DNA of 38,327 nucleotides from Rhodospirillaceae bacterium (GTDB lineage: Bacteria > Pseudomonadota > Alphaproteobacteria > Bin65), in NCBI GenBank assembly GCA_026709535.1, contig JAPOST010000189.1:1-38327 (forward strand), given 5' to 3'. A program made the translations under genes and the position numbers. Position 1 is the stretch's first letter. The number at the start of each line of letters is the position of its first letter. Below the pieces are notes generated by a model that saw only the letters and a list, made by a program, of their open reading frames with translations, did no database searches and was not told where the DNA came from. Positions 1-38,327 of the stretch are shown in pieces.

Positions 1-1067
1 AAATGGAAAGACAGAAATCCGGTTAGAAGAATCCGGTTAGCGTGGAAACGCTCTAATTCGCGCATTGCGGCAGACTGAAGAGAAACGCCTTCAGCCAGTC
101 CTTCACGAATATTGTCTCCACACGCATTAAGGATCATGCCTTTCGCGGGATTGGATAGGTCTTTCCAGGCATTGTGGTTGATCAGGAATTCCAGTAATGC
201 GGCGGGCTTGTGCCAACCCGGCAGGTAATAATTCTTGGCAACCATGTGAAATCCCAGGCTGACGTCGATCGACGGGATTGAATATTCCGCGCCATCAATC
301 TGGCCAGATCGCAGCAACTTGATGACTTCTGCACCTCGAAGCCGTAGCGGCGTTGCGCCCAGTTTCTCGACTACTCGCGCTCCCAACCCGAAAATGCGGA
401 TCTTCATGCCCTTGAAGTCGCCGGCGGATTTCAATTCATTCCGGAACCAGCCACCGCCTTCCGATGCAGTGACTCCGCACAGCACAGATATAAGGCCGTA
501 TCGGCGGTAGATTTCTTCAAGCAGTTCTCTGCCTCCGCCATGATAATACCACGCCAGATACTCTTTGGCGTCAGGGCCAAAGGGAAAGCCAGAAAACAGG
601 GTGAGGGATTTTTCCCTTGATGCCCAGTATCCCGGCGATGCCCAACAGGCCTGAGCATCGCCTTCCAAAACCGCAGAGAAACAGTCTGCGGCCTTGATGG
701 GGTTTCCCGGCTCGGCCAAGATAATCTGCATCGTGCCGCCGGAAGCCCGGCCGAGTTTGGCGATAAACCGCCTGCCCAACGTCCCGAATTGAGGGGTATC
801 GCCTGGAAACGCACTGACCATCGTCCATTTCAGAAAGACGGTTTGTGCCACTTCTGAATTTTGCTTCTCCGTCGCCGCGGTAATCCCCTCACCTGTCGAA
901 GGCTTGGCTGCTGCTTCTGCCGCGTCCAGATTTGGCTCCTCCTTTGCTGTCTTATGGACATTGACTTCCTGTGGCGCCAGAAGGAACCGACCAATGGCGC
1001 CTCCGGCGACCAAGCAGACGATCGCTACAACGGCTATGCGAAAAAGGAGAAAGTTCAAGGCTGTCAT
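1..1067 (-). CDS. TRAP transporter substrate-binding protein, DctP family (3' end off the window)
   Basis: This is the periplasmic solute receptor of a tripartite ATP-independent transporter, which captures an organic acid or similar substrate and hands it to the DctQ/DctM membrane subunits. The frame opens with ATG at 1067. Residues 1-30 form a hydrophobic signal or anchor (MTALNFLLFRIAVVAIVCLV), followed by an Ala/Glu-rich linker. The mature domain starts near WTMVSAFPGD and shows family features: FPFGPDAKEYLAWYYHGGG, the FKGMKIRIFGLGARVVEKLG segment, QIDGAEYSIPSIDVSLGFHMVAKNYYLPGWH and WKDLSNPAKGMIL. Subunit type resembles the mannitol/chloroaromatic group. Near its 3' end a 14-nt tandem duplication shifts the frame, so the visible tail (RILLTGFLSFH) departs from the family; removing one copy gives RISVFPF, a more normal ending. 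The gene may therefore be a recent pseudogene. No DctQ/DctM genes are visible; they could lie left of the window. Confidence 0.85.
   Translation of the reverse strand, partial: MTALNFLLFRIAVVAIVCLVAGGAIGRFLLAPQEVNVHKTAKEEPNLDAAEAAAKPSTGEGITAATEKQNSEVAQTVFLKWTMVSAFPGDTPQFGTLGRRFIAKLGRASGGTMQIILAEPGNPIKAADCFSAVLEGDAQACWASPGYWASREKSLTLFSGFPFGPDAKEYLAWYYHGGGRELLEEIYRRYGLISVLCGVTASEGGGWFRNELKSAGDFKGMKIRIFGLGARVVEKLGATPLRLRGAEVIKLLRSGQIDGAEYSIPSIDVSLGFHMVAKNYYLPGWHKPAALLEFLINHNAWKDLSNPAKGMILNACGDNIREGLAEGVSLQSAAMRELERFHANRILLTGFLSFH
17..40. repeat. 14-nt tandem duplication inside the TRAP receptor gene
   Basis: The 10-mer ATCCGGTTAG occurs at 17-26 and 31-40 with a 14-base period. Since 14 is not a multiple of three, the duplication changes the reading frame of the gene on the minus strand. 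Collapsing it restores a tail that fits the DctP family better. Confidence 0.75.
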
Positions 1068-1783
1068 GCTTTATCGGCCGGCAAGTTATCTTATACACCG
1101 TCGCGAGCCAGCATAAAGTGAGCGGCGGCGCGCTGGATCCGGTAGTCATGAACCGTTCGCGGAATAGGGGCGCCGGGTTTTCCGGCAGGCTTTGAGCGCA
1201 AGCTGGATTGAGGCTCGGGATGGCGGTTTTTGGTCGCAGCTATGCTGCGTGCCGGTATGAGCCTTGCTAACGGCTCCTCGGCAGTCCGAGAGCCTGAACC
1301 GCATGTCCTTGCCATGATGATGTTCGTGTGAATCAAGGACTGATCCCTCGCGCGACCCTGCGCATGAGGACGCGGCAGGCGGCGCGTTGTACTCGGGCCA
1401 GGGAACTCTCCAGGCTCCGCGCGACTCCCCCGGCCAGTCGCCGGCATCGCCCCATCCGAGTGAAGGGCCGCGCCACGACCTCTGGACTTACCCACGATCT
1501 CCAGCACCCTTCGCCGCCTTCAGTCACGCACAAGGCTTCGGGTCGCTATACCCGCCCCTTCGAGACCCTCTGAGCCGTGTCCGAGAGGACATCCGCCGCG
1601 CCCTGCACGTCGGCCGTGTGAACCCGCACCGCGATTGGACTGCTTCCGTCCCTCGATCTTTCTTGCCGGTATCGGACTTGGAAACTGAGTATTGAGCGTC
1701 TATAATCTGCGATGATTCAGGAAAACGTATTTATACCAAGACTCGCCGCTATGTAGAATCGGCGGATAACCAAAACCCCGAAA
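1068..1783. other. 716-nt stretch without a recognisable gene
   Basis: Several open frames cross this GC-rich stretch on both strands, but none resembles a known protein and all are rich in Arg, Pro and Ser, as expected of chance frames. One hairpin is visible at 1272-1294 (GGCT, bulged C, CTCGG, loop CAGT, CCGAG, AGCC), with no T-run. The right end becomes AT-richer (about 1690-1783) and should hold the promoter of the cassette at 1784; a short dyad CGCCG/CGGCG lies at about 1744-1764. The promoter of the leftward TRAP receptor gene is probably near 1070-1150, but no clear -35/-10 pair was identified. Confidence 0.5.
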
Positions 1784-2076
1784 ATGGCAAATTTGAGCAA
1801 GCTAGCCGATCTTGTTAGCACATTGCTGAGCAGCGAAATCAGCAATGTGAAGATTGATTCTATCGATATCGAACCCGATTTTGATGAGGATGGGGCCGGG
1901 TATTGCTCGTACGGGTAGTTTTTGAAGGTGATCGAAAGAAACTGGACGCCAAGAAAACTTCAGGTCTGGTTCGCAGATTGCGACCGAAAATGATTGAGGC
2001 TGGTGAGACGGATTTCCCAGTTTTGTCATTCGTAGCAAAATCTGAACTGGAGAAATTGCACTCTGCCTCCCCATGA
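1784..2076 (+). pseudogene. First gene of a HEPN-like two-gene cassette, frameshifted
   Basis: ATG at 1784 opens a frame reading MANLSKLADLVSTLLSSEIS and continuing to DEDGAGYCSYG before TAG at 1916. In the frame one base back the protein continues as VVFEGDRKKLDAKKTSGLVR and LRPKMIEAGETDFPVLSFVAKSELEKLHSASP, ending with TGA at 2074. The two halves join smoothly at about 1912-1916 into a protein of about 97 residues, so a single indel has broken the gene. I recall small alphaproteobacterial proteins with the SGLVRxLRPKL...FPVLSFVSKSE pattern, encoded just upstream of a HEPN-like protein as here, but I cannot name the family. Function is unknown; a partner or antitoxin role is only a guess from the pairing. 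Confidence 0.7.
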
Positions 2077-2533
2077 TCTCCTTACTACTGCGCAAACTCT
2101 CCTTAATGCGAACAACCGCCGGCCACGCCAATTTGACCTGAAGCGCGCGCAAAGTACGATCTACTACGCACTGTTCCATGCTCTCGCCAAATGTTGTACA
2201 GATATGTTTGTCGGAGGTTCTCAAGAGCCTCCTAATGACAAGGTCTGGCGGCAAACCTATCGGGCTGTAGAGCATAAGGCCGCGAAGAACAGGTGCAGGG
2301 ATCATGTGGTGTTGGAGTTACCGCAGGCAATCTAGGATTTCGCTAATGCTTTTGCAGTAATGCAAGTCAAGCGGCATAAGGTAGACTATGACCCGACTAT
2401 AAAACTCGTAAAATCTGAAGTTCAGCAAGACCTCAGTGACGCTCAGGATGTGATCCAGAGAACCGGGAATGTTCAGAAATTCGATCGGCGCGCATTTGCA
2501 GCCCATGTACTTTTTGCAAAACGGAGCGAATAA
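2063..2533 (+). pseudogene. HEPN-like protein, interrupted by an in-frame TAG
   Basis: The frame reads PHDLLTTAQTLLNANNRRPR, then an all-helical segment containing LKRAQSTIYYALFHALAKCC, as far as LELPQAI. An in-frame TAG at 2333 follows, after which the same frame continues DFANAFAVMQVKRHKVDYDP and ends KFDRRAFAAHVLFAKRSE with TAA at 2531. The downstream part is clearly the same protein, so the TAG is a nonsense mutation. A convincing start codon is also missing: homologues, as I recall them, begin MNPxDLL, but here the equivalent positions are CCC-CAT, and only a CTG at 2063 is available. The helical fold with RxxxxxYYALFHALA suggests a HEPN-type domain, often found in toxins and RNases, but this is inference. 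It overlaps the end of the preceding gene. Confidence 0.7.
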
Positions 2534-2881
2534 GCGTTTATGTAATCCTCTAACGCCTCAATCGCAGTCCCGCGAGGCGCCGGATAATCGCAGGCTAGAA
2601 TGTTTGCTGGCGGAGAAGATCATCAGCGATGCGACCGCCCAATCGGTCAGGAGACCGCCAAGATCATGGCCATGAAACCACAGGGTTTGAGGCGCCGCCG
2701 CAAACAATATCGAGTGTACCGCAGGTGCTGCAGGCCAATCCTTGAACCATACGACCGCACCGCCAAGACGAAATGGGCTGCGAATCAAGGGTCATTGAGC
2801 GCTTGATGGAAAAACAAAGCCGCCGGAAGCTGTTTCGGTGGTGTTCTATCGGAACAGTTTCCTCACCTTGCCTTCCGGTAG
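2534..2881. other. Gene-poor stretch between the decayed cassette and tRNA-Pro
   Basis: A minus-strand frame at 2558-2788 is open (it includes HGHDLGGLLTDWAVASLMIF) and overlaps plus-strand frames, but I recognise no family, RBS or partner for any of them. The stretch lies directly beyond the 3' end of tRNA-Pro, where integrated elements are often found, and may be remnant DNA. Confidence 0.4.
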
Positions 2882-2958
2882 TGGTCGGAGTGAGTGGATT
2901 CGAACCACCGGCCCCTGCCTCCCGAAGACAGTGCTCTACCAGGCTGAGCTACACTCCG
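2882..2958 (-). tRNA. tRNA-Pro (anticodon CGG)
   Basis: On the minus strand the acceptor CGGAGTG pairs with CACTCCG, followed by A and an encoded CCA. The D arm is GCTC...GAGC, the anticodon stem CTGTC/GGCAG encloses the loop TTCGGGA, giving anticodon CGG (reads CCG), and the T arm GGTGG-TTCGAAT-CCACT is canonical. Length is 77 nt including CCA. Its 3' end faces the decayed cassette at 1784-2533. Confidence 0.97.
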
Positions 2959-3064
2959 GCTCTATACGCTATATAACTCTGCGAAAAATCTGACGCAAGC
3001 ATCCGGACAGGACTTCGACATCGGCGTTCAGTCGCGATTCGCCAATGGCAATCGGTGCCGGCAC

Positions 3065-4132
3065 TCAATGGGGACGATCTACGGCGAAGGCAACCAGATC
3101 GCCCAGCGCGTCGTGGATTGGGCTGGGCGGGAAACTGTCCAGGGCTCGCGTGGCCTGATTGGCGTAGTGACAGGCGCGTTCAACCGTTTCGGTCAGTGCG
3201 CCATGATTGTGCATAAGTTCAATTGCTCGATCCAGGTCACCGTCCTGAATTTCCTGGACTTCAAACGTGCGTCGCCAGAAATCTTTCTCGACCGCATCGC
3301 CCTGACGATAAGCCAGAATGACAGGCAGCGTGATCTTGCCGTTGCGGAAGTCGTCACCGATCTGCTTGCCCAGTGTCGCTTGGTGTGCCGAGTAGTCCAG
3401 GACATCGTCGATCAATTGAAAGGCGATGCCGATACTCCGACCGAACAATCCCAACTTGTCCTCAAGCGCTTGGGGCTGGTCCGAGATTATGGCACCCACT
3501 TGGGCGGACGCTTCAAAGAGTTTCGCAGTCTTTCCCGTGATGATGCGCAGATACTCTTCTTCATCGGTTGAAAGGTCATTCGACGTTGCGAGTTGATGCA
3601 CTTCACCTTCGGCAATGGAGGCAGATGCAGCCGACAGCGTGCGCAATATTTTCAGCGATCCGTCCGCAACCATGATCTCGAACGACCGAGAGAACAGGTA
3701 ATCGCCGACAAGCACGCTGGCCTTGTTGTTCCAGACTGCATTGGCTGTCGGCGCCCCGCGGCGCAAATCGCTTTCGTCCACAACATCATCGTGAAGGAGG
3801 GTTGCCGTATGGATGAATTCAACGCAGACGGCCAGCTTGACATGTCGGTTACCTTCATAGCCGCACAATTTTGCACACGCCAGTGTCAGGAGCGGGCGAA
3901 GGCGTTTGCCGCCGGCGGCGACAATATGACCGGCCAGTTTCGGGATCAGAGGCACTGGATTGTCCATCTGGGACAAAACCGTGGCGTTGACCTTCTCCAA
4001 GTCGGGGCCGACGATATCTATAATTCGGTCCAGACTGGCCGCAACCGAAGATCCCGGACGGGTTGCCAGTGTCTTTGGCTGGCGTGATACGGCTGAAGTC
4101 AAAAACTGTCCTTCCCTGAGACGCCGCCCCAT
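3065..4132 (-). CDS. ispB: All-trans polyprenyl diphosphate synthase (octaprenyl/decaprenyl type)
   Basis: This enzyme elongates farnesyl or geranylgeranyl diphosphate with isopentenyl diphosphate to make the long side chain of ubiquinone. From the ATG at 4132 it is 355 residues. The substrate motif GGKRLRP is at 74-80, the first aspartate-rich motif DDVVD at 115-119 and the second DDVLD at 242-246, both intact and spaced as in trans-prenyltransferases. Chain length cannot be read safely; C40-C50 is likely in an alphaproteobacterium. Start choice: ATG 4132 has only a weak Shine-Dalgarno, whereas TTG at 4102 has GGAAGGA about six bases upstream and gives 345 residues, a good alternative. The frame is open to 4360, but that extension overlaps the divergent gene at 4336 and looks non-coding. 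It is transcribed away from the DUF2007 gene. Confidence 0.95.
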   Translation of the reverse strand: MGRRLREGQFLTSAVSRQPKTLATRPGSSVAASLDRIIDIVGPDLEKVNATVLSQMDNPVPLIPKLAGHIVAAGGKRLRPLLTLACAKLCGYEGNRHVKLAVCVEFIHTATLLHDDVVDESDLRRGAPTANAVWNNKASVLVGDYLFSRSFEIMVADGSLKILRTLSAASASIAEGEVHQLATSNDLSTDEEEYLRIITGKTAKLFEASAQVGAIISDQPQALEDKLGLFGRSIGIAFQLIDDVLDYSAHQATLGKQIGDDFRNGKITLPVILAYRQGDAVEKDFWRRTFEVQEIQDGDLDRAIELMHNHGALTETVERACHYANQATRALDSFPPSPIHDALGDLVAFAVDRPH

Positions 4133-5341: not shown

Positions 5342-6190
5342 TTGGACAGACAAGCAGAGCCTGTTGTGTTTGGACGGCTGAAACCAAAGGTGGCAGTGCT
5401 GAGGTTGAATGGCGTGATCGGCGGCTTCGGCCCGTTGCGGCGGGGCATGAGCCTCCAGAGCATGGCCAGCATGATCCAGCGCGCATTCTCCATGAAAGGG
5501 CTCAAGGCCGTTGCGTTGTCCATCAACTCGCCGGGCGGTGCTCCCGTGCAATCCTCTTTGATTTATCGCCGCATCCGCGATCTGGCGCAGGAAAAAAACG
5601 TGCCGGTGCTTGTCTTCGTAGAAGATGTGGCGGCTTCAGGAGGTTATTGGCTGGCTTGCGCCGGAGATGAGATCTACGCGGACTCCAATTCCATCGTCGG
5701 ATCCATCGGCGTGGTCAGCAGCGGCTTCGGGTTTGTCGAAGCCATCAGGAGGATCGGTGTTGAGCGGCGGGTATATACGGCTGGAAAACACAAGGCCATG
5801 CTGGATCCCTTCCGGCCGGAGAACGAGAGGGATGTTGCGCATCTGCGAACCATTCAGGAGGACATGCACACCAGCTTCATCGATCTGGTAAAGCGCCGGC
5901 GCGGCAAGAAACTGAAAGGCGATAACCTCTTCACAGGCGAATTCTGGACCGGGAAGAGGGCACTTGATTTGGGCTTGGTGGATGCGATTGGCGACCTGAG
6001 GACGGTCTGTCGCGACCGGTTTGGCGAGAAGGTCCGTCTGGTTGTCGTTGGCGAGAAGCGCGGATGGCTCAAGCGCGGCTTCGGCCTCGTCGGCACCGAA
6101 ACATCTGGCTCTTCCTGGGGTTTTGATCTGGGGGCAGGTGCCTTGGCTTCGATGGAAGAGCGAGCACTATGGTCTCGCTTCGGCCTGTAG
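5342..6190 (+). CDS. S49 family serine peptidase (SppA/SohB-like)
   Basis: A 282-residue ClpP-fold peptidase of family S49, related to signal peptide peptidase SppA and to SohB. The oxyanion-hole region LSINSPGGAPVQSSLIY is at 59-75, the nucleophile is Ser99 in VAASGGYWLACAGDEIYA, and the general base is probably Lys151 in YTAGKHKAMLDPF, matching the Ser-Lys dyad of the short SppA type. There is no N-terminal signal or membrane helix, so a cytoplasmic or peripheral location is likely. The only early start is TTG at 5342; GTG at 5366 is an alternative. In several alphaproteobacteria a gene of this kind sits just upstream of glyQ, as here. Confidence 0.88.
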   Translation: MDRQAEPVVFGRLKPKVAVLRLNGVIGGFGPLRRGMSLQSMASMIQRAFSMKGLKAVALSINSPGGAPVQSSLIYRRIRDLAQEKNVPVLVFVEDVAASGGYWLACAGDEIYADSNSIVGSIGVVSSGFGFVEAIRRIGVERRVYTAGKHKAMLDPFRPENERDVAHLRTIQEDMHTSFIDLVKRRRGKKLKGDNLFTGEFWTGKRALDLGLVDAIGDLRTVCRDRFGEKVRLVVVGEKRGWLKRGFGLVGTETSGSSWGFDLGAGALASMEERALWSRFGL

Positions 6191-6208
6191 GGTATCTGGA
6201 GAATCCCT

Positions 6209-6421
6209 GTGCTCTCCGTCGGCAAGATCCTGCTTGTGATTGCAGCGGTTGGCGCCTTGTTGGTAGGCACCAGACTGGTCCGGCAGATGAACCGGAAGAA
6301 TGCTGACCCGGTCGAGACAAAACCGGACGTTGATGCAATGGCAACCGACCTCGTAAAATGTCAGAAATGCGGTGCATACACAGCGCTGCACTGCGGCAAG
6401 CAAGGCTGTCCGGTGGGGTAA
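6209..6421 (+). CDS. Small membrane-anchored protein with a C-terminal cysteine motif
   Basis: A 70-residue protein starting at GTG 6209, with GGAG seven bases upstream. Residues 3-22 (SVGKILLVIAAVGALLVGTR) form a single membrane helix. After a polar linker, the C-terminus carries CQKCGAYTALHCGKQGCP, a CxxC...CxxxxC arrangement that resembles a small zinc ribbon. It lies between the S49 peptidase and glyQ in the same direction. I recall similar short proteins at this position in related genomes, but no function is known. Confidence 0.75.
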   Translation: MLSVGKILLVIAAVGALLVGTRLVRQMNRKNADPVETKPDVDAMATDLVKCQKCGAYTALHCGKQGCPVG

Positions 6422-6526
6422 GCCCACACGATCGCCGTGCGGCGGCGTGACTCGTGCGACACCCGGACAGTTTTGCCATAGTGCGCCGCACAATCCCTCA
6501 GATTTCCGCCAAGAGATTACCTGGCG

Positions 6527-7444
6527 ATGGCGTCTGCCGTATCGCGTGAGACCTGTTTTCAGCGCCTGATCCTCAAACTTCAGGATTACTGGGCCGATCA
6601 GGGCTGCGTGATCCTCCAGCCGTATGACGTGGAGGTTGGCGCGGGCACATTTCATCCGGCAACGACTCTGCGATCACTGGGACCGGGAGCGTGGAGGACG
6701 GCTTATGTGCAGCCCTCCCGCAGGCCTGCAGACGGCCGTTATGGAAAGAATCCGAACCGGCTGCAGCATTACTACCAGTTTCAGGTGCTGCTCAAACCGT
6801 CGCCGGCAAACAGTCAGGAACTGTATCTGGATAGCTTGAAGGTCCTGGGGATCAACCCTGTGGCACACGATATCCGGTTTGTGGAAGACGATTGGGAAAG
6901 CCCGACCTTGGGAGCCTGGGGCCTCGGCTGGGAGGTCTGGTGCGATGGTATGGAGGTGACCCAGTTCACCTACTTCCAACAGGTTGGCGGCTTTGACTGC
7001 AACCCGGTTTCGGTGGAATTGACCTATGGTCTTGAGCGTCTGGCGATGTATGTCCAGGGCGTTGAAAACGTTCACGACCTGGACTGGGACGGCATCCCGA
7101 AGGATCAGGGCGGGATGACGTATGGCGACATCTTCCTCCAGGCCGAACAAGAATTCTCCGCCTTCAACTTCGAGCACGCAAACGTCAAAAGATTGCTCAG
7201 GCATTTCAGCGACGCCGAAATGGAATGCATCGAACTGGTGGAGACCGCAAACCCGCTTCCAGCCTACGATCAATGCATGAAGGCGAGCCACCTTTTCAAT
7301 CTGTTGGACGCCCGAGGCGTCATCAGTGTAACGGAACGTCAATCCTATATTCTGCGGGTCCGGAGTCTGGCGCGCGCCTGTTGTCGGGCGTGGCTGGAAA
7401 ACCGTGGACATTTGGACGGCGTGGCAGATTCCAGCGATGCCTGA
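6527..7444 (+). CDS. glyQ: Glycyl-tRNA synthetase alpha subunit
   Basis: The 305-residue catalytic subunit of the bacterial alpha2-beta2 glycyl-tRNA synthetase, which activates glycine and charges tRNA-Gly in the cytoplasm. The sequence is typical throughout: [20 protein letters not shown] at the start, [18 protein letters not shown], the motif 2 region [41 protein letters not shown] and the motif 3 region [16 protein letters not shown]. Length is normal. Its stop overlaps the glyS start by eight bases, so the two subunits are translationally coupled. Confidence 0.98.
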
Positions 7445-9626
7445 ACTGCTACTTGAACTCCTGTCCGAAGAAATTCCGGCCCGCATGCAGGATCTGGCGC
7501 GTAACGATCTGGCGCGACTGGTAACCGACGGGTTGAAAGAGGTCGGCCTCACCTGCTCGGACGTATCAACATTCTCGACCCCGCGGCGTGTCGGCCTCGT
7601 GGTCGATGGCCTTCCCAAACAGCAGGCAGATATCCGCCAGGAACGGAAGGGACCGCGCGTCGGGTCGCCTGACAAGGCGATCCGGGGGTTCTTGAGGTCC
7701 GTCGATTTCGAGAGACTGGACCAGTGCGAAGTACGAGAGATCAAGGGCGCCGAGTTCTATTTTGCATTAGTGGAGAAGAAAGGCGCCCCGACCGCTGAAG
7801 CGCTCACCGACATCGTGACCGCGGCCATCTGGTCGCTGGGCTGGCCGAAGAGCATGCGGTGGGGCGGCACGCATTTCAGCTGGGTTCGTCCCTTGCAAAA
7901 CATCTTGTGCGTTTTTGACGGTTCCCCGGTTTCGGGCAACCTGGAACTCGGCGGAGAAACCATCCTTGCCTTCAATTCCAGGACCATTGGACATCGCTTT
8001 CTGGCACCGCACGAGATCCTGGTAAAATCATCCGATGACTACCGGCAGTCTCTTGAAAAGGCCTTCGTTCTGGTCGACCCGGAGAGGCGAAAACAAAGGA
8101 TTGTGGATGAAGCCGCGCGCCTTGCTCAGCAAGAAGGGCTGGTCTTGCGCGACGATTCCGAGTTGCTTGCCGAAGTGACCGGACTGGTCGAATGGCCCGT
8201 TCCGGTGATGGGCGCCATTGACGACGCATTTATGGAACTGCCGCAGGAGGTTCTGATCACTTCCATGCGGAGTCATCAGAAATACTTCGCCTTGGAAGAC
8301 GGTGACGGCCGGATGGCGTCCCGGTTTATCACGATCGCCAATATCGAGACACAGGACGCGGGGAAGGCGGTCGCGTTCGGGAACGAGCGGGTATTGCGCG
8401 CGCGGCTGGCCGACGCCAAGTTTTTCTGGGATCAGGACCGGACTGCCCCTCTGGCATCGCGCGTCTCGGCGCTTCGGGCGATCACTTTCCACGCTCAACT
8501 GGGTAGTGTTGGCGAGAAGGTACAGCGAATTGAAAGCTTGGTCGCCGATCTGGCCGTGATGGTCGGGGCAAATACCGAACTTGCCTCGAGGGCCGCCCGT
8601 CTCGCCAAGGCGGACCTCACCACTGGCATGGTCGGCGAATTCCCCGAGCTGCAGGGGCTGATGGGCCGATACTATGCCCTGAATGACGGCGAAGCAGCGG
8701 CCGTTGCCGAAGCGGTTGCCGGGCACCATGCGCCGCAAGGACCGTCAGATGGGTGCCCCGCCGATCCTGTCACTATCGCGGTCGCGTTGGCCGACAAGAT
8801 TGATACCCTGGCTGGATTCTGGCTGATTCGGGAAACACCTACGGGCTCACGCGATCCCTTCGGGTTGCGCCGCACCGCCTTGGGCGTCATTCGCCTGATA
8901 CTTGAAAACGGCCTCCGGCTGCCGCTGGTCGGCCTTCTCCAGCAGGCGGCAGAGCAGGTTTCCCTTTCGGCTTTCGAGAGCCATACTGCTCAACAACAGG
9001 CAGTGCCAGGCGATGTTGGTGTTGATGACATTTCCATCGCCGGGCCAGCGAAAACCGAAACCGGGACACATCCGCGCTTTGGAGCGATTTTCGACTCCAC
9101 GTGCCTGGTCTTTCAGTTCATCGTCGATCGTTTGAAAGTGCATTTTCGGCATCAGGGCATGCGCCATGATCTGGTGGCCGCGGTCTTCGACAAGGGGGAT
9201 GATGACGACCTTGTCCGTCTTCTCGCGCGAGTCGAGTCGCTGGATCGTCTGCTGCAATCAGAGGATGGCGAAAATCTGTTGATCGGCTATCGTCGGGCGG
9301 CCAATATCTTGCGTATCGAAGAAAAGAAAGACGGTCGACCCTATACTGGAACTCCGGAAGCCGGTCTTTTGCAACTCGATCAGGAGTTAGCGTTGTACGC
9401 CGCCTTGCAGGAAGCCGACAAGACCGTCGCTCACCATCTTGAGGCTGAGGCGTTCGCGGACGCCATGGCGGCCCTGGCCCGGCTTCGAGGGCCCATTGAT
9501 CGTTTCTTTGACTCCGTCAAGGCCAATGACAACAATGCAGCGCTTCGCGAGAACCGTCTTTTTCTACTGTCGAAAATTCGCACGGTGATGGGACAGGCGG
9601 CCGATTTTTCGTTGATTGAAGGGTAG
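7437..9626 (+). CDS. glyS: Glycyl-tRNA synthetase beta subunit
   Basis: The 729-residue beta subunit, which recognises tRNA-Gly and is required for charging. Homology begins at ATG 7437 ([20 protein letters not shown]), overlapping the glyQ stop. Typical segments include [55 protein letters not shown]-like [19 protein letters not shown] and the DALR-like anticodon-binding C-terminus [20 protein letters not shown]. The protein is longer than the usual 690 or so residues, owing to an insertion of about 40 residues near 510-555 (the [17 protein letters not shown] region) that looks like low-complexity linker just before [19 protein letters not shown]. The frame is intact across it. Confidence 0.97.
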
Positions 9627-34812: not shown

Positions 34813-35541
34813 ATGAACAAGCCGCAGCGCACAGCCGGACTGCCCCCGTCACCCCTGTCGGGGGACCGCGTTGCGACGTGGCTGCGCCGACACCCCGATT
34901 TCCTAGCTGACAGGCCGGATCTGGCTGCCATTCTGACGCCGCCGGCCGTGGCAGGGACAGATAACCATGGCGGTCCCATCGACTTCGGCCGATTCCTGGT
35001 TCAGCGCCTGCAGCGGGATTTGGCCGCCGCTCGCGACAGCGAGATTGCCGCTATCGACAACGCGCGGCGTCTGATCCAGCAGCAGGAGCGTGTGCACGAG
35101 GCCTGCCTTGCCCTGATTGATGCGCGGAGTTTCGAACACTTTGTCGAAGCGATCGCCACGGATGTGGCCGTCATGCTGCAACTTGACGCCGTCGCCTTGT
35201 GTATCGAAGCCAGAGAGAAGCAGCCGAAAGGGCGGACGCGCAGCGGCGTCAACCTGCTACCCATCGGAACAGTCAACGCGCTGTTGGGGGGAGAAGACAA
35301 AACAGATCGGCGTCGTGAATTGATCCGCGCAGAGCGGCGTCTATATGGCGGTGCAGCGGCGCTGATCCAGTCGGACCTGTTGATCCGCCTGCGCGTGAGT
35401 TCGATTGCCCCCGCCAGCTTGCTGGCGTTGGGCGGCCGCGACCCGGCGACTTTCAGGGAAAAGACCAGCCTGCCGCAATTCTTCTATTTGGCTCGGGTGA
35501 TAGAAAGCACCGCTCGCGCATGGTTGAACGCCCCGAAATAA
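34813..35541 (+). CDS. DUF484 family protein
   Basis: A 242-residue protein of the DUF484 family, related to GAF-type domains and usually encoded just before xerC, as here. Typical are VATWLRRHPDFLADRPDLAA, the coiled stretch FGRFLVQRLQRDLAAARDSE and the C-terminal LLALGGRDPATFREKTSLPQ region followed by FFYLARVIE. Function is unknown. Start ATG 34813 has GAGG eight bases upstream; GTG 34804 is an alternative. Its last 22 bases overlap the xerC start. Confidence 0.9.
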   Translation: MNKPQRTAGLPPSPLSGDRVATWLRRHPDFLADRPDLAAILTPPAVAGTDNHGGPIDFGRFLVQRLQRDLAAARDSEIAAIDNARRLIQQQERVHEACLALIDARSFEHFVEAIATDVAVMLQLDAVALCIEAREKQPKGRTRSGVNLLPIGTVNALLGGEDKTDRRRELIRAERRLYGGAAALIQSDLLIRLRVSSIAPASLLALGGRDPATFREKTSLPQFFYLARVIESTARAWLNAPK

Positions 35542-36497
35542 ACCACGGCGTGCCGACGCTGATAGATCCGGCGCTTCATCCCGATCTTGACCCGGTCGTC
35601 CTGGCCGACCTGATGTCATGGCTGGCGCAGTTGCAGCACGAGAAGCGTGCCTCTGCTCACACCGTCGCGGCTTATCAACGGGACGTCCTGGCCTTTCTGA
35701 GGTTTACCGGGGGGCATGTGGGCTCTCCTGCGGGCCGGGCTGTCCTCGGCGCCTTGCGCAGCGGCGACCTGCGATCATGGCTGGCGGCGCGGGCTGGCGC
35801 CGCCCGGTCGTCAACCGCGCGGGCGGTTTCCGCAGTCAGGAGTTTTTTTCTTTATCTGAACAAACAGAAAATACTGTATAATTCGTCAATTTCGACTCTT
35901 CGGGCGCCAAAATTGCCTCATGCGGTGCCAAAACCGCTTTCTGTCGCGGAGACCTGCGACCTGTTAGATGCCGTGCGGGCTGACGTTGCCAATCCATGGG
36001 TTGCTGCGCGGGATGCCGCTGTCCTGACGCTGATCTATGGTTGCGGCCTCCGCATTTCCGAAGCCTTGGGTCTGGACCGGCATGCTGCGCCGTTCGGTGC
36101 CAGCCTCATCATTGTCGGCAAGGGCAACAAGGAACGGGTCATGCCGATTCTGCCGGCCGTGAACGAGGCAGTAGCGAGTTACCTGTCGCTGTGCCCGTTT
36201 GCGCTGCCACAGGATGGTCCGCTTTTTGTCGGCAAGAAAGGCAAGCGGTTGAATCCACGAATTGTGCAGCTGTTGATTCAGCGTCTCCGCCCGGCATTAG
36301 GCCTTCCCACTTCCGCCACGCCTCACGCGTTGCGCCATTCCTTTGCCACGCATCTGCTGTCCGGCGGTGCAGATCTCCGGTCCATCCAGGAACTGCTTGG
36401 TCATGCCAGCCTGTCGACGACGCAACGATATACGGAGGTCGACGCCACTCGCCTCATGGAAGTTTATCAAGCCGCGCATCCTCGGGCTCGGGAATAG
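35520..36497 (+). CDS. xerC: Tyrosine recombinase XerC
   Basis: A 325-residue site-specific recombinase that resolves chromosome dimers at dif with XerD. The N-terminal SAM-like core-binding domain contains KRASAHTVAAYQRDVLAFLR. The catalytic residues are all present: Arg178 in YGCGLRISEAL, Lys201 in VGKGNKERVMPI, His269 and Arg272 in HALRHSFATHLL, His295 in LLGHASLSTTQRYTEVD and the nucleophile Tyr304. The context with DUF484 supports chromosomal XerC rather than a phage integrase. It is convergent with the selenoprotein gene. Confidence 0.95.
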   Translation: MVERPEINHGVPTLIDPALHPDLDPVVLADLMSWLAQLQHEKRASAHTVAAYQRDVLAFLRFTGGHVGSPAGRAVLGALRSGDLRSWLAARAGAARSSTARAVSAVRSFFLYLNKQKILYNSSISTLRAPKLPHAVPKPLSVAETCDLLDAVRADVANPWVAARDAAVLTLIYGCGLRISEALGLDRHAAPFGASLIIVGKGNKERVMPILPAVNEAVASYLSLCPFALPQDGPLFVGKKGKRLNPRIVQLLIQRLRPALGLPTSATPHALRHSFATHLLSGGADLRSIQELLGHASLSTTQRYTEVDATRLMEVYQAAHPRARE

Positions 36498-36526: not shown

Positions 36527-37615
36527 TCAGACAGCGATGTCAAGGGCATCCAGCCCCAGTTCCTCGCGTAATTCGGCGGTCAGGTCGCGCTTGGCATCCT
36601 CCAAGGGAATGCCAGTGGCATTTGCCGCTCGCGGATAGGCGTTGAAGGCGGCTATGGTCGCCGCCGCATCGACCATGGACGCTGGACCCATGGCGTTGAC
36701 CATGGCAGCACGCATGACGGTGAGCGCCTCGTTATCGCGTACCATGACGGCTTCCAGGAAGGCATTCAGCACCGCGCCGTTCGACATGGCAGCGTCGCCG
36801 CCTTGCGTCACGGCGGTCAGATCGTAGTCATCCCCGGTATCCTTGCCGCTCATCCTGAGCCGCGCCGCATGGCTGGTCGTTCAGTAGTAGCACCCCAGCA
36901 GCATGGACGCCCGCGCCGCCAGAAACTCCATCTGTGCCCGGCTGATGGCCCGATCGATGCCTTCCAGTTCGATAACGCGAGGATCTTCCAGGTAGAGTAG
37001 ATTCATGATGTCCCAGAACTTCCGGGCTTCATCCGGCACGAGAGTCAGAGATCGGCGGATATAGAAGTGGGACTCGTTGGCGTAGAAGTCCTCGAACGTC
37101 GCGCTGACGTTCTCCGGCGCAATGGTGGCGACCCATCCGGGGCCTGGCGTTGCCGTCGGATCGCGCTGGCGCGCTGGCGTACCGGGGACGATCACAGGCA
37201 TGTCCGGGACTTGGATACCGATCGCAATCGAGAAGGTATCTATTACCGTGGTAATAATCGTGATGGAGACCAGTTCGACGTACTCGTCTTCCGAAAGGCC
37301 GCTATTCTGCACCTGCAGGCACCATTTTTCGGTCAGTCGGCCAGGATCCGTTACCACGCGGTGGATCGCATCTACCCAAGGCTGCGGCAGGTCCGTAGCG
37401 GCATCGTGGCTGCCTTCGACCGCATACGGCGACAGGGCTTTCTTGATCTCCCGACACAAGCTGCAATGCCAAGCAGCGCGCGCTTCCTGCGCCACGGCAA
37501 CCCGCTGGTGGCCGGTCAGCCATCCGCCGGCCTTGCCCAGTTGCGCCCAGCCGCGGTCCAAGGCGCCTCCCAGTTCGGCGCGGATGGGCAGATTTTGTCC
37601 AGAGAAGTATCCCAT
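36527..37615 (-). CDS. AhpD-like (alkylhydroperoxidase-related) selenoprotein, Sec245
   Basis: One frame of 362 residues, interrupted only by TGA at 36881-36883 and ending with a stop at 36527. Upstream, MGYFSGQNLPIRAELGGALD to RASMLLGCYY; downstream and in phase, TTSHAARLRMSGKDTGDDYD to LREELGLDALDIAV. Reading TGA as selenocysteine gives C-Y-Y-U-T-T-S-H (Cys242, Sec245, His249), matching the AhpD active-site pattern C-x2-C-x3-H, with the acidic FLAAR/QMEFLAA helix before it. A second CxxC (CSLC, Cys51/Cys54) lies in the N-terminal half. I recall a bacterial family named alkylhydroperoxidase-related (seleno)protein with just this layout. Likely role: thiol/selenol peroxidase or oxidoreductase; the substrate is unknown. 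Without recoding, two proteins of 244 and 108 residues would result, neither with a redox centre. Start ATG 37615 has no strong Shine-Dalgarno. Confidence 0.85.
36845..36863 (-). promoter_or_regulatory. Candidate bacterial SECIS element
   Basis: On the minus strand, 24 bases after the TGA, a stem GCTC/GAGC (36857-36860 with 36848-36851) encloses the loop AGGAT; a G-G mismatch and two further pairs (C-G, G-C) extend it. Bacterial SECIS elements lie within the coding region close behind the UGA and have a short apical stem with a small G-containing loop that SelB binds. Distance and loop fit; the stem is short, so this is a candidate only. Confidence 0.5.
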
Positions 37616-38043
37616 GCGGTGATTTTAGACCACGGCGTAGGGTCCTTCAACAAGGGACAGGAGGGATTCGGCGATTTTCCATGTTTGGGCCAGTGTCGGC
37701 ACGGCGAATGGCTGGTCCGGCCGCTAGGAAGGTACGCACGGTGTATCTGTGTGTGCTGTACCTCGCATCACTTGGCTATGACCGCGTTTGGGAGGCGATC
37801 GACCTTGGCAGGAAACTACGCTCGGCTCTTTTTCCAAATCCTGATGACTGTTATAGTTGGCAATTACAATTTTTTTTACCTGGTCTTCTTGGCCGAATCG
37901 AAGAAGGCTCACAAGGAGGTAATTCTTTGGGAATTATGTAGCAAAGTGCCGAAACCGTTGATCGTCAACAAATTGACGTGTCATGCTCTAATGATAGATG
38001 GATATAAATAGAGATATGGAATTTCAAAAATGGATGGTCACTC
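37616..38043. other. Intergenic, AT-rich towards the right; strong Shine-Dalgarno without a gene
   Basis: No gene was recognised in this 428-nt stretch. Base composition drops sharply in G+C after about 37830, and a run of eight T lies near 37871. A perfect ribosome-binding sequence AAGGAGGT at 37913-37920 is followed six bases later by TTG, but that frame has only four codons before a stop (TTG GGA ATT ATG TAG). It may be the surviving start of a lost gene. Confidence 0.45.
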
Positions 38044-38265
38044 ATGTCTTACACAGTCAAAGAATTGAATGAAATCGCCGAGATTCTAGAATCTCTTCCT
38101 GAAGAAGAATATTATTCTGTAACAGAAGGGATGAAGAAAAAGATCAGGAAGGCATCAGAAAAAATTGAAGATCTGAAGGCGTATCGTCGAGGATTGAAGA
38201 GCATCAGGGATCATAACAGAGCATACAAGAACCAGATCAAGATGGGGCTTGTTCAACCACGTTAG
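38044..38265 (+). CDS. Small charged helical protein, hypothetical
   Basis: A 73-residue frame from ATG 38044, beginning MSYTVKELNEIAEILESLPE and ending QIKMGLVQPR. It is rich in Lys and Glu with heptad-like spacing and is predicted by eye to be almost entirely helical. The DNA is clearly AT-richer than the rest of the window, which suggests horizontal origin. No family was recognised; a similar profile is seen in small phage, plasmid and antitoxin-like proteins. The Shine-Dalgarno is weak. Confidence 0.5.
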   Translation: MSYTVKELNEIAEILESLPEEEYYSVTEGMKKKIRKASEKIEDLKAYRRGLKSIRDHNRAYKNQIKMGLVQPR

Positions 38266-38327
38266 ATACTTTGTAACTGCCGAGGTTGTTTATGGGGATA
38301 ATTCTGTTTTTTGGCGTGGTCTTTTCG

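Follow-up and report, generated by a model that had tools for sequence, protein, structure and literature searches.

Selenoproteins with a CxxU motif in a domain of AhpD type have been described before. Zhang et al. (2005) reported from the Sargasso Sea a 'hypothetical protein 1', known from four selenocysteine (Sec) sequences with CxxU and, in the same data set, seven Cys homologues (PMC1088965), and a 2026 review equates this protein with the family NF041238 (PMC13188914). The AhpD-like 1 and 2 and CMD-domain selenoproteins (COG2128, pfam02627; Zhang and Gladyshev 2008, PMC2398784) likewise carry CxxU in an AhpD-type domain, and are listed as families apart from hypothetical protein 1/NF041238. 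The peroxidase-related AhpD proteins (TIGR01926; PDB 2prr, 6k40, 3c1l, 2pfx) are single-domain Cys proteins of ~190 residues, while the Sestrins (human Sestrin2, PDB 5dj4, 5t0n, 5cuf) have two AhpD-like domains per chain, the N-terminal one redox-active with one Cys and the C-terminal one having lost its redox motif (PMC4674687). Fused AhpD-like dimers from Comamonas aquatica and Corynebacterium ureicelerivorans and a Rokubacteria CMD protein have been proposed as bacterial analogues of Sestrin (PMC11429811); in the part of that article available to us they are described with Cys and no selenocysteine is mentioned, two having a cysteine pair in the C-domain and two lacking the N-domain cysteines.

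The locus described here lies in a window of 38,327 nucleotides, by which we mean the whole stretch of Rhodospirillaceae bacterium DNA that was analysed. Given that PMC1088965 and PMC13188914 already cover NF041238, we treat its gene as a further member of a selenoprotein family already described, which it resembles in its full-length match to the model, its CxxU, a UGA at the equivalent place and a SECIS element downstream.

Reading frame and family assignment

The gene occupies 36527–37615 on the minus strand. Translated from 37615 to 36527 it gives 244 amino acids, a TGA at 36883–36881, a further 117 amino acids and a terminal TGA at 36529–36527, with no other stop, so that reading through the internal TGA yields a protein of 362 residues whose junction is C242-Y-Y-U245-T-T-S-H249. 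The list of open reading frames divides the same gene into 36881–37615 (244 aa) and 36527–36853 (108 aa). The first-pass annotation had noticed that two minus-strand frames of one phase are parted by this single TGA, had placed the TGA at the second cysteine of the AhpD motif C-x2-C-x3-H, and had proposed that the part beyond it continues the same protein; translation bears out each of these points.

That the joined frames are not a chance juxtaposition follows from their match to a single family model: NCBIfam NF041238 (AhpD_rel_CFYUT, 'alkylhydroperoxidase-related (seleno)protein') scores 426 bits against a cut-off of 175 and aligns residues 11–358 with model positions 1–355 of 357. This also answers the first-pass suggestion that the joined protein be searched against alkylhydroperoxidase-related (seleno)protein families. 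The CxYU-T motif of the family, in which the U may be Sec or Cys, is present as CYYUTTSH, although the model's name has CFYU where the window protein has CYYU. General AhpD models matched only the C-terminal part of the read-through protein, below their cut-offs, TIGR01926 reaching 38.5 bits against 81.8; Pfam CMD finds every one of the 51 sequences in our alignment A2 (best 5e-9), with the window protein itself at 20.4 bits (cut-off 23). The protein nonetheless has what defines the AhpD/CMD superfamily, the AhpD fold with its Glu, CxxC(U) and His. The existence of an NCBI model for exactly this family means that the first-pass expectation of two unrelated hypothetical proteins from ordinary annotation is out of date; the gene is still a clean example of how a UGA makes ordinary gene calling split a gene.

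Compared with orthologues from the same genus, dN is 0.20–0.23 and dS 1.0–1.5 before the TGA, and 0.15–0.20 and 0.9–1.3 after it; purifying selection is thus equal on the two sides. We are all but certain that this is a single, intact selenoprotein gene of the NF041238 family.

Conservation and proposed decoding of the internal UGA

Every match above the cut-off, in 11 genomes of the taxonomic family and 385 genomes drawn from the class, contained one TGA. We read 131 matches, 130 of them picked out by pattern and the remaining one (L107, CHYUTTSH) by eye, which reduce to 110 distinct proteins once loci from genomes met twice are removed. In all of them a TGA stands at the site equivalent to 36881–36883, the position of a redox-active Cys, and in none is there a Cys; nor does any homologue read end at CYY with a second protein encoded separately, the arrangement that the first-pass annotation had named as contradicting its reading. 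That the family is always seleno-encoded in the relatives examined is an addition to what was known of it, and differs from the seven Cys homologues in the 2005 paper. Perhaps these homologues are missing here because we read only close relatives and, of the 488 matches in an alignment-based scan of genome contigs, the best 80. The search peptides of the contig scan did not cover the Sec site.

The closest named relatives are alphaproteobacterial metagenome-assembled genomes, mostly labelled Rhodospirillaceae, at 68–72% identity. A scan of genome contigs with the single protein found no relatives, tblastn against plasmids gave no matches, and a phylum-wide draw of genomes returned the family only from the window's own genome. 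Among the 385 class genomes the family occurs in 27 and selB in 54, and all 27 are within the 54 (hypergeometric P ~8e-27, a value that assumes independent genomes and so overstates the case, many of the sequences being related and the relatives mostly metagenome-assembled genomes). Tandem pairs of family members were seen at L115 (4965–7159), where the second frame begins right where the first ends, and in L069 (two copies on G305:C9), with a UGA in each copy.

The window's own genome (3.67 Mb in 203 contigs, 96% complete) encodes the whole of the Sec machinery that the first-pass annotation had predicted, with all components above curated cut-offs: selA (566 bits), selB (398 bits), selD (285 bits) and a tRNA-Sec (72 bits) with the anticodon TCA. 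The first two and the tRNA gene adjoin on contig C203 in the order selA-selB-selC (L152, G000:C203:1-8000, 332–3829 minus). The SelD domain is on contig C40, fused to an N-terminal pyridine-nucleotide oxidoreductase domain (L153, G000:C40:4000-12372, 5829–8084 minus). In some Alphaproteobacteria selC has been reported nested in selB; on C203 it lies ~30 nt past the selB stop and is not nested. The genome contains three members of the selenoprotein family; they lie on three contigs and have exactly one internal TGA apiece. The tree assigns them to three old clades, all of which include orthologues from the genus's other genomes. One paralogue adjoins the SelD fusion on C40, and in the genomes G001, G002, G004, G005, G017, G100 and G132 selB and a paralogue are no more than a few kb apart.

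Downstream of the UGA is a bacterial SECIS hairpin (36845–36863, minus), with a core stem-loop GCUC-AGGAU-GAGC at 36848–36860 and its apical loop at 36852–36856, 24 nt from the UGA. The region folds at -14.4 kcal/mol for 46 nt, and by itself the folding energy of the hairpin is unremarkable (z -1.0). As this energy alone is unconvincing, we tested the hairpin by synonymous resampling, in which each codon was redrawn from its synonyms according to how often these genes use them. Of 127 genes, 119 have the exact pattern GCTC-NGKNN-GAGY at +24 to +36, where the resampling predicts 1.2. Across 107 distinct sequences, nucleotides 24–27 from the UGA pair with nucleotides 33–36 (GCUC/GAGC) in 96–99%, and in the loop (nucleotides 28–32) the second position is always G and the third U (88) or G (19). 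No gene has CGC as the codon under the loop, although elsewhere in the same genes CGC accounts for 42% of the Arg codons. The motif is therefore under selection at the nucleotide level, beyond the constraint on the protein, and it is on the conserved motif and the choice of codons that the case for the hairpin stands. The published bSECIS model asks for G in the first two loop positions followed by G or U, 16–37 nt past the UGA, on a stem of 4–16 bp with an energy of -7.5 kcal/mol or lower (PMC13188914); the window's hairpin agrees with it in its loop (AGGAU, with an A-U closing pair and GGA), its spacing and its energy. At gathering thresholds Rfam returned two tRNAs and no SECIS model for the window, which is uninformative either way.

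We infer from these sequence features that SelB carrying Sec-tRNA(Sec) would decode the internal UGA thanks to the hairpin just downstream, inserting Sec as residue 245, and that the final TGA, unlike the internal one, would terminate translation. The conserved TGA, the SECIS element and the Sec machinery together support the 362-residue selenoprotein first proposed from the letters of the window.

Three other accounts of the internal TGA have to be set against this one. A lone in-frame stop is typical of a young pseudogene, and a Cys or Trp codon might have mutated to TGA, leaving the downstream part as a relic; yet the identical TGA recurs in the three paralogues and in all 131 matches read, selection continues past it and there are no other disruptions. 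With both the TGA and the reading frame beyond it conserved, we reject this account, which seems to us vanishingly improbable. Nor could we sustain the idea of two separate proteins, or of programmed termination at CYY with a C-terminal part started separately, for which the in-frame ATG shortly past the TGA (36853) might speak. Such a division would fall between Cys242 and His249, inside the AhpD catalytic helix, in a protein whose predicted fold is continuous, and the codon in question, the tenth past the UGA, is ATG in only 8 of 127 members; on these grounds the division is rejected as very improbable. The third account, that an alternative code or a suppressor has TGA read as Trp or Cys, would also produce a full-length protein, but TGA terminates this gene and both of its paralogues in the genome. 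It is likewise the terminal stop of 60 of 128 homologues (TAG 44, TAA 24), so it still ends genes, and selA, selB, selC and selD are present and the family tracks selB. We therefore discard this account too, giving it next to no credence, and continue with the gene as one that encodes a selenoprotein.

Two AhpD-like domains in the predicted structure

A structure model built from 51 sequences (mean pLDDT 94.9) places the Sec site in a C-terminal AhpD/CMD-like domain of residues ~158–362 (36530–37144, minus), of which residues 158–348 match peroxidase-related AhpD structures with Z 13–14. Glu230 (36926–36928), Cys242 (36890–36892), Tyr244, Sec245 (36881–36883) and His249 (36869–36871) are all invariant in alignment A2, and Cys242, the first residue of CxxU, Glu230 and His249 are so in alignment A1 as well. 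They correspond to Glu74, Cys86, Tyr88, Cys89 and His93 of YP_296737.1, as described by Kim et al. (PMC4674687), the proton-relay glutamate lying 12 residues before Cys242, as Glu74 does before Cys86, and His249 being the proton-relay histidine of AhpD. The same set of Glu, Cys, Tyr, Cys or Sec, and His is common to the peroxidase-related AhpD proteins, which share the fold of this domain but differ from the two-domain, Sec-containing window protein in their architecture.

The second, N-terminal domain goes beyond what the first-pass annotation had recognised. Residues 1–150 (37166–37615, minus), modelled alone (pLDDT 94.4), gave 15 top structural matches that are all AhpD/CMD, followed by unrelated folds; the best Z, 8.7, is modest for a helical domain. 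This domain has a CxxC of its own (Cys51-Ser-Leu-Cys54, 37454–37465, minus), invariant in A2 and present in 123 of 128 sequences, in which the His at +4 is absent. Four of the five sequences without it (L069 twice, L070 and L071) form one divergent branch, and the fifth (L125) is truncated at a contig end. In the divergent branch the N-terminal CxxC has been lost and the CxxU kept, suggesting that some lineages can do without the N-domain thiols. In the model the helix order is identical in the two halves, and a profile comparison of one half with the other gives P 9e-5 with CxxC aligned with CxxU; BLAST between the N and C halves found no match, so that the profile comparison alone detected the likeness. 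From the uniform list of matches, the shared helix order and the half-to-half profile match, the predicted protein is best seen as a pseudo-dimer of two fused AhpD domains, with CxxC in the first and CxxU in the second.

For the whole chain the best structural match of the model is human Sestrin2 (Z 17.6 over 240 residues at 3.2 Å), AhpD proteins following with Z 12–14. The family is thus predicted to have a fold like that of the two-domain human Sestrin, which adds to what has been described of it. Identity to Sestrin2 is 11%, a likeness that sequence matching does not detect: no Sestrin model was among the Pfam hits of the 51 members and no Sestrin chain was matched by the A2 profile, both of which are compatible with distant kinship. 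The Sestrin C-domain has lost its motif, whereas that of the window protein is complete with Sec and its N-domain has a CxxC without the His. Because the C-domain motif is complete and invariant, we do not file the family as a Sestrin. It shares two AhpD-like domains with the fused dimers of PMC11429811 as well, but has Sec, and an N-domain CxxC where, in the available part of that article, two of them lack the N-domain cysteines. In the literature covered, which was a part of the whole, we found no earlier statement of a link between NF041238 and Sestrin, and there Sestrin, selenocysteine and AhpD came up together only in a review of p53 and oxidative stress. That this selenoprotein family is linked to the architecture of Sestrin may so far be unstated.

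Probable activity and what the family offers

The match of the invariant residues to those of YP_296737.1 leads us to infer a hydroperoxide reductase or a related thiol-redox enzyme. The C-terminal domain would have a complete active site of the AhpD/peroxidase-related kind (Glu230, Cys242, Tyr244, Sec245 and His249), with Sec standing in for the second cysteine, and most likely organic hydroperoxides or a peroxiredoxin partner would be reduced via a Cys242-Sec245 selenenylsulfide. The N-domain, having CxxC but not the catalytic histidine, could serve as an electron relay or have a structural role. Judged by its residues, the protein probably has a peroxidase or closely related thiol-redox activity. 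It might instead be a selenoprotein that is no peroxidase, either a general thiol-oxidoreductase or a sensor such as the Sestrin C-domain became; the best whole-chain match is to Sestrin2, whose C-domain is without the redox motif (PMC4674687), and no conserved redox partner was found beside the gene. We consider this unlikely: the C-domain keeps the full catalytic set, and the presence of Sec in all members read speaks for redox chemistry.

The neighbours of the gene gave no clue to function at the five orthologous loci checked. The selenoprotein gene and a Xer-type tyrosine recombinase gene (35520–36497, plus) are convergent, and this layout is conserved at three of the five (L072, L075, L076). 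On the upstream side the window looks richer in A+T by eye (37800–38327) and has a 73-codon open reading frame (38044–38265, plus) with no Pfam match.

We put forward tentatively, as a possibility that we would not favour at present, that the NF041238 proteins are selenium-dependent bacterial counterparts of Sestrin architecture, fused AhpD pseudo-dimers in which the N-domain CxxC would feed electrons within the chain to the C-domain Sec, and which would have stayed with Sec because Cys is insufficient. Cys homologues are common in many selenoprotein families, and against these the Sec-only pattern in every member read is possibly worth the attention of specialists. As a predicted fused AhpD dimer with the fold of Sestrin, the protein would provide a bacterial enzyme in which the chemistry of that fold may be tested.
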